Assembly (NCBI GenBank): GCA_025201365.1
Contig: JAIXMF010000028.1
Coordinates: 19,914-83,913, forward strand
DNA: 64,000 nt
Origin: Syncephalis plumigaleata
Taxonomy: Eukaryota > Zoopagomycota > Zoopagomycetes > Zoopagales > Piptocephalidaceae
Direction: 5' to 3'
Below are positions 39,187 to 45,400 of this stretch, piece by piece. Every line of letters begins with the position of its first letter. Position 1 is the first letter of the stretch. A program made the position numbers and the translations under genes. The notes under the pieces are model-generated. The model had not been told where the DNA came from, ran no database searches, and was given only the letters and a program-made list of their open reading frames with translations.

Positions 39187-42100
39187 ATGGAATCATCTGC
39201 TGATAACAATAATAATAATAGCCAGCCTATAGTCAATGCTACAACATCCGTATCATCAAATTCCCCTGGTATTTCTATCATCATCATTATCATCGATACT
39301 AGTCAACATACTAATCGTAATACTACTATCTAATGGTCTTTCTAATGACAATCAATAGATGGTAAGTCTATATTGTATGACAATAATTGCAATGCTAATG
39401 ATGATGCCACATATGATGCTGTCAATCATAGCTGGTGAGTTAAACAACGAGTGATCATGACATCTATCATGTTGGCTGGAATGTAAATCAAAATCATATG
39501 TCACTATTATAGAAGCAGAAGTAAGTTGATATTCTGTCTAAATAAACATACAACGTACTAATTGCAATACTCGTATGATAGGAGGTGAGTTGTGAATCAC
39601 GATAATACTATGCCATACGCTCATTGAAATGTGGCAATCGATTCCCGTATGATTATGATGCATAGGAACACGTAAGCTACTAGTATCATTGTAATGAGCC
39701 ATTTGATTCACGTATGATTGCATGTATTAGTGGGTAAGCGAGCACTCGTTGGAATGTGGCATTCGATTCACCGATGATGACGCGTAATAGATTGTAAGTG
39801 GGCGGTATTCTGATTGCAGTATACGTCATACTAATTGCAATGGCACAATTGCTTCACTTGTCATTCCACACACACACACACACATACACATACATGACAG
39901 TATGTAGGTGATCATTTCGATCATAGCATACAATGTGCTCATTACAAGTTGACATGTCATGATACGTGTACGATGACCTGTAACAGGATGTAAGTTGCTA
40001 GTCTAGCATCATCGTATAATGTACTAATAACAACAACAACAATCATCATCATTCTCTTCGCATATGATTGCACTAGTATGTAAGTGGGCATTTCCATACT
40101 AATGCATGACGTGTTAATAGCAATGCATCACACACACACATATATATATATATACATAATAGATTGTAAGAAGTTAGCATTCCAATCTTACTAGTCGATG
40201 TACTCATTACCCTATGGCATACAATTCACATATGATTACGAGTAATAGTATGTAAGTGATCATCGTTGCAATGTGTGATCAATTAATTACAAATTGATTG
40301 ATGATTCACATATACTTGCATGTAACAGAGGGTAACTAGACATTCCTATCGTGATATGTAATGTGTTAATCGAAATGATGAACATGGTCCATGATGGATG
40401 ATTACACGGCATAGATTGTAGGTTGGCATTCTAGTGTCAGTATACTGATATACTAATCATAGTATTTATTTATTATTACGGATAATAGGAGGCAAGTCAT
40501 TATGATGAGTATAGAATACAGTATGCTGATTGTAGCACAATACATCATTGACTTGTAACAACACATGTAGAAAGATGTAAGCTAGCATTCCAATAATAAT
40601 CACAATAATCACAATGGATGACATGCTAAGTGAAATGCGACATACAATTCATATACGTGTGTGTGTATGATGATCACACGACATAGACGGTAAGTTAACA
40701 CGTGAACTACAATCCCAAATTGTAGCTCACCTATGACTATGGAATACAATAGGCCGTAAGTTATTGTTTCAATTGAAGCATACAAGACATTAATTGGAGT
40801 GTGGAATACAATCCACATACTATCACGTACAACAGATGGTAAACTAGCATTATAATCACCGTAGAATGTATGCTAATAGGGATGTGACATGTTATCTGCA
40901 TACGAATACGTATAGCAAATAGTAGGCTATTACTATGATGACAATGGATGATATGCTAATTGTGATGCGACATACAATTTTTGTATGATTATGAATGATA
41001 GACTGTAAGTCAATGTACCGAATTTAGTATGCAATGAGCTTACCGTAAATTGAAATATGATTCCTGTATTGTTATATATGGCAGTATGTAAGTTAGCATA
41101 ATGATTACAGCGTGTAACCAGCTAATTATAAAATGATATGCAACCCATCTATGATTACGAATGACAGGATGCAAGTTGACATATCGATTACATCGTACAA
41201 TGAATTAATTACGATGCGACATACAATTCACATATGATTGTGAATGATAGAGAGTGAGTGAACGCGTTGGCAACAGCATGCGATGAACTAACTGTAAATT
41301 GGCATATAATTCCCGTATGATTATGAATGGCAGTGGGTAAGCTAGTATTGTAGTGACAATGGCCGATGTGCTAATTGCAATGCGGTGTATAATCCAATGC
41401 GTTTATTAATGATAGGGTGTGAGTTAGCATAATGGTTATTGCATACAGTGGACTGATTATAATGTATCATACGATTCACATATGATTATGAATGGCAGTA
41501 TGTAAGTTGGAATAATGATAGCAGCATGCGATGGACTGATCATAATGCATCTTACGATTCTCGTACAATTACACGCTACAGGATGTAAGTAAGCATACAA
41601 ATTACAGCGTATGATGAACTAATTGTAAATTAAATATAATTTTGTATAATTATGCGTGACAGGAGGTTAGTTAACATGTCGATTGCAGCATACGATGGAC
41701 TAACATACAAAACTTGTGTATGATTATACCTGACAGTATGTAAGTTAGCACGATGATTACAGCATACGATAGTCTAATTGTAATTAACATGTGACTTGTT
41801 TATAATTACGCATGACAGTTGGTAAGCTAGCACATTGATTATGGGTTTAATGGCTTAATCGTATTATGATACTCGATTTCTATACAATTGTATGGGACAG
41901 GGAGTAAGCTACCATACCGCCTGAAGCATACCATAAGTTAATAATATATATTGGAATCCACGTATGCTTATGGGGGCAGCTTGTAAGTTTATATACAGGC
42001 TGTATCAAACAGTATACTCATTAGAATGCGCTTTACAATCCCATAGCTTTCTGAACGGGAGAAAGTAAGTCAATATACAGAATTTAGTATGCAATGCGCT

Positions 42101-45100: not shown

Positions 45101-45400
45101 TGATAACAAATACCGCATTAATTGTAATGGAGTACACGTTAATTGTTAAGACATCTTGAGGAATGGTAAGGCAATAATCCACAATAATTATACTCATACT
45201 AATCCATTATGATTACAGAGCAAGACAAGGACATCATCAAGTAGATATTATAGGTATTCAAGTCAAGAATGGATTGGTGCAAGACCGTCATTTAGTGTCC
45301 ATACCATTCAAGTCATTATTCCTTGGTACAACAACAACAAATATATTTACAAGGTTATCATTCAATCATTTATTGAATAAATATGTCGTATTCTGACCAT
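39187..45400 (+). CDS. Gene built of about 70 micro-exons, mostly single codons
   Basis: Exon 1 (39187-39268) encodes MESSADNNNNNSQPIVNATT and seven more residues, ending in phase 1. It is followed by about 70 introns whose exons are 3, 6, 8, 12, 18 or 21 nt. Exons 2-4 (39359, 39432, 39513; 3, 3 and 8 nt) restore phase 0. From exon 5 (39582) to exon 71 (45081) every exon is a multiple of three. In this frame the first codons read E, EH, W, I, Y, D, Y, I, Y, R, I. Exons 42, 43 and 46 (18, 21, 21 nt) give a charged, coiled-coil-like part with NRIREE, LKAENRR and LKEANQR. The product is about 125 residues. The end is unclear: exon 72 (about 45161-45165) joined at 45219 gives a stop, whereas the acceptor at 45221 extends an open frame to about 45375. 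No homologue is recognised. Confidence 0.75.
39269..45218 (+). repeat. Tandem intron array, 83-bp period
   Basis: Each unit is an intron of about 80 nt plus a 3-nt exon. Donors at 40839, 40922, 41005, 41088, 41171, 41254, 41337, 41419, 41502 and 41585 are spaced 83 or 82 bases. The internal consensus is a GTAAGTTAGCAT-like start, a GCTAATTGTAATG-like motif about 35 nt in, and a CACGTATGATTATGAATGATAG-like end. Neighbouring units share these motifs but are clearly diverged. Five donors are GC (40492, 41171, 44311, 44482, 44565). CA/TA dinucleotide runs sit in two introns (39870-39890, 40130-40155). Confidence 0.9.
42557..42971 (+). repeat. Two-unit block duplication inside the array
   Basis: The segment from about 42557 to 42724 recurs at about 42804-42971. 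Both copies contain the GATATCCGAATGATGAAGCA and GTTTGATTTGGTCAAG blocks and end in a 21-nt exon (42704, 42951). The exons encode related heptads, LKAENRR and LKEANQR. This shows recent growth of the array by copying intron and exon together. Confidence 0.85.

Follow-up and report, generated by a model that had tools for sequence, protein, structure and literature searches.

The 64,000-nucleotide stretch of Syncephalis plumigaleata contig JAIXMF010000028.1 that was analyzed here (the window) contains, on its + strand at 39187-45400, a predicted gene in which 71 introns alternate with 70 micro-exons, 59 of them only one codon long. We consider it likely that this is a real, spliced and probably protein-coding gene of a fungal-lineage organism, and that its array has grown by tandem multiplication of a unit made of one intron and one codon. 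The anatomy of the array, the constraint on its splice signals, the phase that is kept along it and its open frame are all properties of the sequence itself, and they are described in this order below.

An array of predicted one-codon exons

The + strand of the region repeats the pattern AG-NNN-GTAAGY, followed by pieces of about 80 nt with a CTAAT-like element near their middle, at a period of about 83 nt. It was parsed with a frame-blind Viterbi model, whose only signals were the donor (6 nt), the branch (5 nt) and the acceptor (4 nt), and which ignored exon bases and reading frame; in its final form it accepted introns from 55 nt and exons from 1 nt upwards, with the branch 20-75 nt before the AG. 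This final parse tiled 39187-45400 with 71 introns and 70 internal exons, of which 59 are 3 nt long, five 6 nt, two 8 nt, two 18 nt and two 21 nt, and 66 of the 67 lengths past exon 4 are divisible by three. Scored with a fixed starting model, the array reached 632, with 59 3-nt exons. The controls were the reverse strand (score 128; 36 introns, zero 3-nt exons), 20 dinucleotide shuffles (129-193; 0-2 3-nt exons each) and nine segments of 6.2 kb from the window, parsed on either strand; 17 of these 18 scored 123-203, again with 0-2 3-nt exons, and the eighteenth (37285, +), with 41 such exons, overlaps the array.

Both ends of the array (39269-45218) were set by hand, at a first donor at 39269, where the parse had chosen a poor GC site at 39221, and at a last acceptor at 45218, where it had chosen 45253 (169 aa, likewise open). 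The curated model is the frame-blind parse with hand changes at these two sites and at exon 61. Its introns measure 57-110 nt, with a last intron of 135 nt and a median of 80 nt. Of their 71 donors, 66 are GT and five GC when exon 61 is taken as 12 nt long (65 and six when it is taken as 8 nt), 69 acceptors are TAG or CAG and two are AAG, and the CTAAT-like branch site lies most commonly 46 nt upstream of the AG. Together with the exclusion of AG described below, these are the features of U2-type introns. A first-pass annotation of this DNA had reported about 70 introns with AG acceptors and GT or GC donors around 60 exons of 3 nt, all lengths from exon 5 to exon 71 being multiples of three. 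The array and its splice sites hold up without help from the frame; the number of 3-nt exons, on the other hand, is 59, and exon 61 is a multiple of three only if a frame-guided length of 12 nt is chosen for it.

Splice signals under constraint

The 69 introns that remain when the first and the last are left out form a single family with a mean identity of 54% in the alignment. Because this identity is almost independent of distance along the array (0.55 at both lag 1 and lag 40), most copies must be old. The alignment was anchored at the splice sites. Its donor (G1 T2 A3 A4 G5), branch (T, A) and acceptor columns show conservation of 0.90-0.99, whereas the non-signal columns average 0.63 and do not exceed 0.87.

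Two other properties appear to be marks of real splicing that do not depend on how the parse was designed. One is the exclusion of AG: in the 69 introns it occurs at 17 of 2549 positions between branch and acceptor, versus 85 of 1836 upstream of the branch, an approximately six-fold depletion. GA is not depleted (0.065 versus 0.067), and in 64 of the 69 introns, with the branch assigned, the acceptor is the first AG at least 12 nt past it. When all 71 frame-blind introns are taken, the AG frequencies are 0.0087 and 0.0458, and the first-AG rule holds in 65. Forty shuffles passed through the same parser gave AG ratios of 0.61-1.27 and first-AG fractions of at most 0.46, and the depletion was absent in 14 other strand-stretches of the window, which resembled the shuffles; the depletion is therefore no artefact of the parser.

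The other property concerns the donor. Pairing of U1 across the exon-intron junction predicts that the donor compensates for the last base of the exon. The donor reads GTAAGY in 40 of the 49 cases where the last exon base is not G, and in 8 of the 22 where it is (p 3e-4; permutation p 1e-4); these counts are identical in the frame-blind parse, and the relation is absent in shuffles. Since the donor compensates in this way, the codon triplet would contribute to the function of the donor. A comparison is offered by the eIF5B gene of the same window, whose joined exons match PDB eIF5B across residues 11-609 of 612: its eight introns of 51-90 nt have G at -1 in 8/8 and GTAAGY in 2/8, whereas G at -1 is found at 22 of the 71 array donors. 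The eIF5B introns thus seem to rely on the exon side of the donor and the array introns on the intron side. One eIF5B intron (15080-15169) contains CTAATATAG, in which an AG is passed over that lies 9 nt from where the branch-like site starts, as would be expected if branch and AG must be a minimum distance apart in this genome. In the match to PDB, eIF5B entries from yeasts and Chaetomium scored 887-913 bits and mammalian ones 731-740, which points to a fungus as the source of the gene.

No consensus fold was found for the introns (mean z of folding energy -0.23), and none of their helices stood well above a parallel control (15.8 versus 12.8); two hairpins guessed by eye had little excess pairing and were discarded. 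Searches for small RNAs in the introns returned no Rfam match, either across the whole window at gathering scores or in 39100-45450 at E up to 1.

Reading frame and predicted protein

Joined between the donor at 39269 and the acceptor at 45218, the frame-blind exons give 186 codons without a stop, up to a TGA whose last base is 45396, and the other two frames of this join hold 12 and 22 stops. The frame is open with exon 61 at either 12 or 8 nt, the two versions being of 182 and 186 aa, respectively. According to the first-pass annotation, exons 5-71 joined into 92 open codons while the other frames were closed, with borders chosen partly by frame. The openness and the closure of the other frames are borne out, the codon count becomes 97 with the 12-nt exon, and the guidance by frame applies to that exon, but the frame-blind join is open as well. 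The same annotation put the chance of the open frame at about 1%. When bases were permuted within exons 5-71, a mean of 6.3 stops arose, and 0.04% of trials were free of stops; counting TAA and TGA alone gives 1.3%.

Phase is also kept where exon length has changed. Past exon 4 there are nine such changes if the 21-nt copies count once, and eight of them are by multiples of three (p 1e-3); exons 42 and 45 (18 and 6 nt), which account for two of the nine, fall in a duplicated block. Retention of an intron would put a stop inside it in 63 of the 71 cases. The codon usage of exon 1 gives +0.21 bits per codon in frame 0, whereas the other two frames give -0.01 and -0.16.

The predicted protein would have about 130-186 aa, depending on the 3' end. 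This span arises because exon 61 may be 8 or 12 nt long, because there is a possible exon of 5 nt, and because the last exon can be read in either of two open frames. The sequence common to its versions, MESSADNNNNN...EEEHWIYDYIYRIEKDTAMQITYDRWGYDEYLGLLSEREKEIRKEENRIREELKAENRRKKALKEANQRLDLFGAMAFMKKQKDNKG, is rich in N at its head, contains an aromatic stretch and has a probably helical middle rich in K, E and R. The codon score of the exons before the last favors the 12-nt exon 61 by 7 bits. In the last exon it favors frame 1 (GHHQVDIIGIQVKNGLVQDRHLVSIPF...) over frame 0 by 8.6 bits, and the frame-1 reading also looked more protein-like. We regard it as likely that the array is protein-coding, although this is less certain than its splicing.

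Individual exons

All exons described here lie on the + strand. Exon 1 (39187-39268, 82 nt) starts with ATG and provides an open frame of 27 codons plus 1 nt (MESSADNNNNNSQPIVNATTSVSSNSP..); together with the 8 nt of exon 4 (39513-39520), its length sets phase 0 from exon 5 onwards. In the parse, the first 3-nt exon (ATG) is at 39359-39361 and the last of the 59 at 45081-45083. Exon 35 (42047-42064, 18 nt, LSEREK) would be an in-frame extension from an upstream AG, use of the later AG giving a 3-nt exon, AAA. Exon 42 (42622-42639, 18 nt, NRIREE) is placed by the parse and by the alignment of a duplication, in which its counterpart is exon 45 (42881-42886, 6 nt), where the homologous TAG is TAT; a later AG common to both copies offers an alternative exon of 2 nt, which would break the frame. 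Exon 43 (42704-42724, 21 nt, LKAENRR), also from the parse, has its copy at 42951-42971 (LKEANQR).

Exon 61 can be read in two ways: as 12 nt (44220-44231) with the donor GTGAGC, a frame-guided choice that keeps the phase, or as 8 nt (44220-44227) with a GC donor (GCAAGT) at 44228, which is the frame-blind choice. A possible extra exon of 5 nt (GAATG, 45161-45165), read by eye, would split the last 135-nt intron; it would bring a TGA at the following junction, and its acceptor, GAG, is of a type absent from the 71 modelled introns. The last exon (45219-45396) is open to a TAA ending at 45380 in frame 0 or to the TGA ending at 45396 in frame 1, has an AATAAA near its end, and may instead be 3' untranslated.

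A recent duplication, a decayed relic and the surrounding DNA

A block of three units has been duplicated recently in tandem within the array (42481-42724 and 42725-42971, +), as found by Tandem Repeats Finder (TRF), BLAST and alignment. Elsewhere in the 64-kb window, only one further tandem pair stands out as copies of the intron family. These two units (13007-13165, +) score 15.6 and 23.3 bits with nhmmer, against a best of 10.5 bits in 12 shuffles (57.5 kb) and of 12.3 bits in 62 unrelated loci. They have lost their donors (ATAAGC, ATAACT) and, by eye, contain AGs in the interval that is mostly AG-free in the array. We interpret them as a probable relic of a second array, which would show the fate of units that are not under selection. 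The original proposal of a micro-exon gene thus survives frame-blind tiling, AG exclusion, donor compensation and the comparison with decayed sister units.

The relic lies 26 kb from the array and adjoins the breakpoint (13245) of an inverted duplication that carries part of the eIF5B gene (13245-16403 and 28344-31499, 98.3% identical). The eIF5B copy at 13245 seems to be without its N-terminal part, which lies on the other strand near 32600-33124. The micro-exon gene itself sits between the arms of another inverted duplication (34612-36792 and 45592-47781, 97.7% identical) that carries F-box open reading frames, and at 17628-18223 a unit of 300 bp is duplicated in tandem with 89% identity.

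Look-alikes in public collections

A search of public collections for the pattern of three consecutive units returned six viral and 56 prokaryotic stretches. Analysis of these 62 with the parser and the unit profile revealed no relative, the best profile match being 12.3 bits. Twelve of the 62 loci gave at least seven false 3-nt exons, and all twelve are titled cyanobacterial. In one of these, L013, an identical repeat with variable spacers, resembling clustered regularly interspaced short palindromic repeats (CRISPR), has letters of the AG-NNN-GTAAG style (4500-4980) that fool a micro-exon parser, which calls for caution in genome-wide searches. One other stretch (L047) likewise has identical repeats, and another (L001) showed no tandem family in the repeat test.

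Weighing the explanations

Several observations weigh against a spliced, protein-coding gene. As to the parse, its limits had been tightened once, after a looser first run with introns from 45 nt; that run also gave 71 introns, with 57 exons of 3 nt and 65 of the 67 lengths past exon 4 divisible by three, and its exons of 29 and 39 nt came from taking an AG near the branch as the acceptor. The conservation of GT and AG is partly circular, because the alignment was anchored on splice sites. As to coding, exons 5-71 score +0.04 bits per codon in frame 0, above frames 1 and 2 (-0.34 and -0.13) and yet inside the range of noncoding pieces of 53 codons (-0.18 to +0.15, 5-95%), and the frame-0 value of the last exon (-0.20) falls short of it. 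Of the 23 long open reading frames of the window, 17 served, in trimmed form, to train the score; most of them are without a family match, and the coding control was not a held-out set. When the 57 one-codon exons past exon 4 are permuted by themselves, freedom from stops arises in 1.8% of trials, or in 13% when only TAA and TGA are counted, which is not significant (P 0.13). In the duplicated block, exons are identical at 29 of 42 positions and introns at 127 of 163; the duplicated exons are no better conserved than the introns and show no sign of purifying selection on codons. Furthermore, no homologue of the joined protein was found in Pfam and PDB (182- and 186-aa versions) or in NCBIfam (182-aa version), where matches were at chance level (best in PDB, E 0.03, a designed repeat protein), nor was one found in viral contigs.

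Much of this would be expected if the array were spliced unit by unit but left untranslated, as a noncoding transcript of which the introns or the splicing events are what matters. Weak codon usage, a last exon that is not coding-like in frame 0, exons that change at least as fast as introns after duplication, and an absence of stops among the 57 one-codon exons that is weak without TAG are all in keeping with such a transcript. However, a noncoding RNA would give no reason for phase to be kept (66/67) or for lengths to change in frame (8/9), the open join follows an ATG exon whose codon score is that of coding sequence, and the Rfam search of the region at permissive E values came back empty; we therefore think this explanation unlikely. 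Considerably less probable, in our view, is recursive (stepping-stone) splicing, in which the mRNA would consist of exon 1 and the 3' exon and the AG-NNN-GT units would only serve to remove a 6-kb intron piecemeal, in an organism whose splicing deals with short introns. Every unit does put a donor beside an acceptor, and symmetric units of 3 nt would be harmless if retained. On the other hand, zero-length sites should do as well or better, the 82-nt exon 1 joined directly to 45219 meets a TAG after eight codons (last-exon frame 2), and the exon bases are off the donor optimum, to judge from the G at -1, as if dictated by codons.

That the gene was once spliced and is now dead has very little probability. 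There is a dead relative at 13007-13165, and the 135-nt last intron could, by eye, be two units fused through loss of a micro-exon; but no intron longer than 110 nt lies between 39269 and 45083, so that no unit has dropped out there, the loss of an acceptor at exon 45 is offset by another AG in phase, and the frame is open. An unspliced tandem repeat, whether a satellite or CRISPR-like, in which AG-NNN-GTAAG occurs by chance, is close to negligible as an explanation. Locked repeats can indeed mimic the pattern, as the 53 false 3-nt exons in 8 kb of the cyanobacterial locus L013 illustrate; however, the repeat there is identical, whereas the units of the array are only 54% alike and their conserved columns are the splice signals. 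On this divergence, together with AG exclusion and donor compensation, a repeat of this kind was rejected. A spliced gene with one-codon exons, probably translated, is thus the explanation that we prefer.

Comparison with known systems

The micro-exon genes (MEGs) of schistosomes and tapeworms are described as having consecutive micro-exons divisible by three, the skipping of which can change the protein by single amino acids, and the published rule for recognizing them, as applied to tapeworms, is at least seven exons, half or more of them shorter than 70 nt and divisible by three, in runs of four (PMC7653826). In the frame-blind version of the predicted 72-exon model, 68 of the 70 internal exons are divisible by three and the longest has 21 nt, and exons 5-60 form a run of 56 consecutive micro-exons divisible by three. 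By the published operational rule the predicted gene would thus be a micro-exon gene, mostly with one codon per exon. Typical MEG exons are longer than one codon. The runs of micro-exons with lengths in threes are shared with the MEGs as described; in contrast to the limit of <70 nt given there (PMC7653826), 59 of the 70 predicted internal exons here have 3 nt, and the lineage is fungal. Unlike those of MEGs, the introns here belong to one tandem family of about 80 nt.

The bicycle genes of aphids are reported to have many small internal exons, nearly all of phase 2, and megacycle to have more than 100 microexons (PMC9168663). The array resembles them in that its internal exons are numerous, small and, with few exceptions, of a single phase, although that phase is 0 in the curated model (exons 5-71); by our own arithmetic the roughly 2000 aa given for megacycle from >100 exons correspond to some tens of bases for each exon. 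Single exons as short as 1-3 nt have been recorded in Fusarium CYP621A and Arabidopsis APC11 (1 nt) and in Drosophila homothorax (3 bp) (PMC12940212, PMC7392893), and microexons are on record for human RPS24 (PMC12686416, PMC11162997). The array, if spliced as predicted, would share with these genes the splicing of exons of 1-3 nt, but according to these records each of the four genes has one or a few such exons, whereas here 59 stand in tandem. Fungal introner-like elements and stwintrons are reported as families of related introns that have multiplied within one genome (PMC8469720, PMC4457414). The array likewise contains a family of multiplied introns; introner-like elements, however, are described at many gene positions and with inverted repeats or a stable structure, whereas the introns here are in tandem and without a conserved fold that we could find. 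In a stwintron, one intron lies inside another and interrupts the outer one's donor, branch or acceptor; the units of the array each carry a complete set of donor, branch-like site and acceptor, and an exon separates one from the next. No description of a run of one-codon exons was found among the titles and abstract beginnings of the open-licence PubMed Central articles that our searches listed, the full texts of which might mention one.

How the array may work and what it may mean

From the features described above we infer transcription, the order of splicing, translation and the function of the protein. Tandem multiplication of a unit of one intron (about 80 nt) plus one codon would have produced 71 U2-type introns, between which lie 59 exons of one codon and 11 that are slightly longer. 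Three features fit such an origin by tandem duplication: the repeat period, which is about 83 nt, the block of three units copied recently, and the relic, itself a tandem pair. Each intron, with its own strong sites, would be recognized by itself, that is, by intron definition. A 3-nt exon lies entirely beneath the footprint of U1 at the next donor. Since it cannot hold the machinery of both neighboring introns, the introns would be removed stepwise, and each splice would lengthen the mRNA by one codon. From exon 5 onwards the exons are whole codons in phase 0, so that both growth of the array and skipping of exons would keep the frame. It is a tentative and rather doubtful extension of this that each codon is separately optional, and that symmetric, interchangeable units, any subset of which could be omitted, give rise to very many in-frame protein variants from one small gene, possibly in a fast-evolving family of this genome.

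With 59 predicted 3-nt exons in tandem, the lower limit of exon size would change from single curiosities into the building principle of a gene, and such an extreme micro-exon gene would show how finely genes can be split and still be spliced. If it is spliced as predicted, intron definition alone can carry splicing where there is no room for exon signals, and the array offers 71 natural replicates for the rules of donor, branch and acceptor. Exons of this size are handled poorly by standard annotation and RNA mappers, so that more such genes may exist. Finally, if spliced as predicted, the duplication of intron-codon units in tandem would provide a simple route to intron-rich genes and to new peptides, codon by codon.

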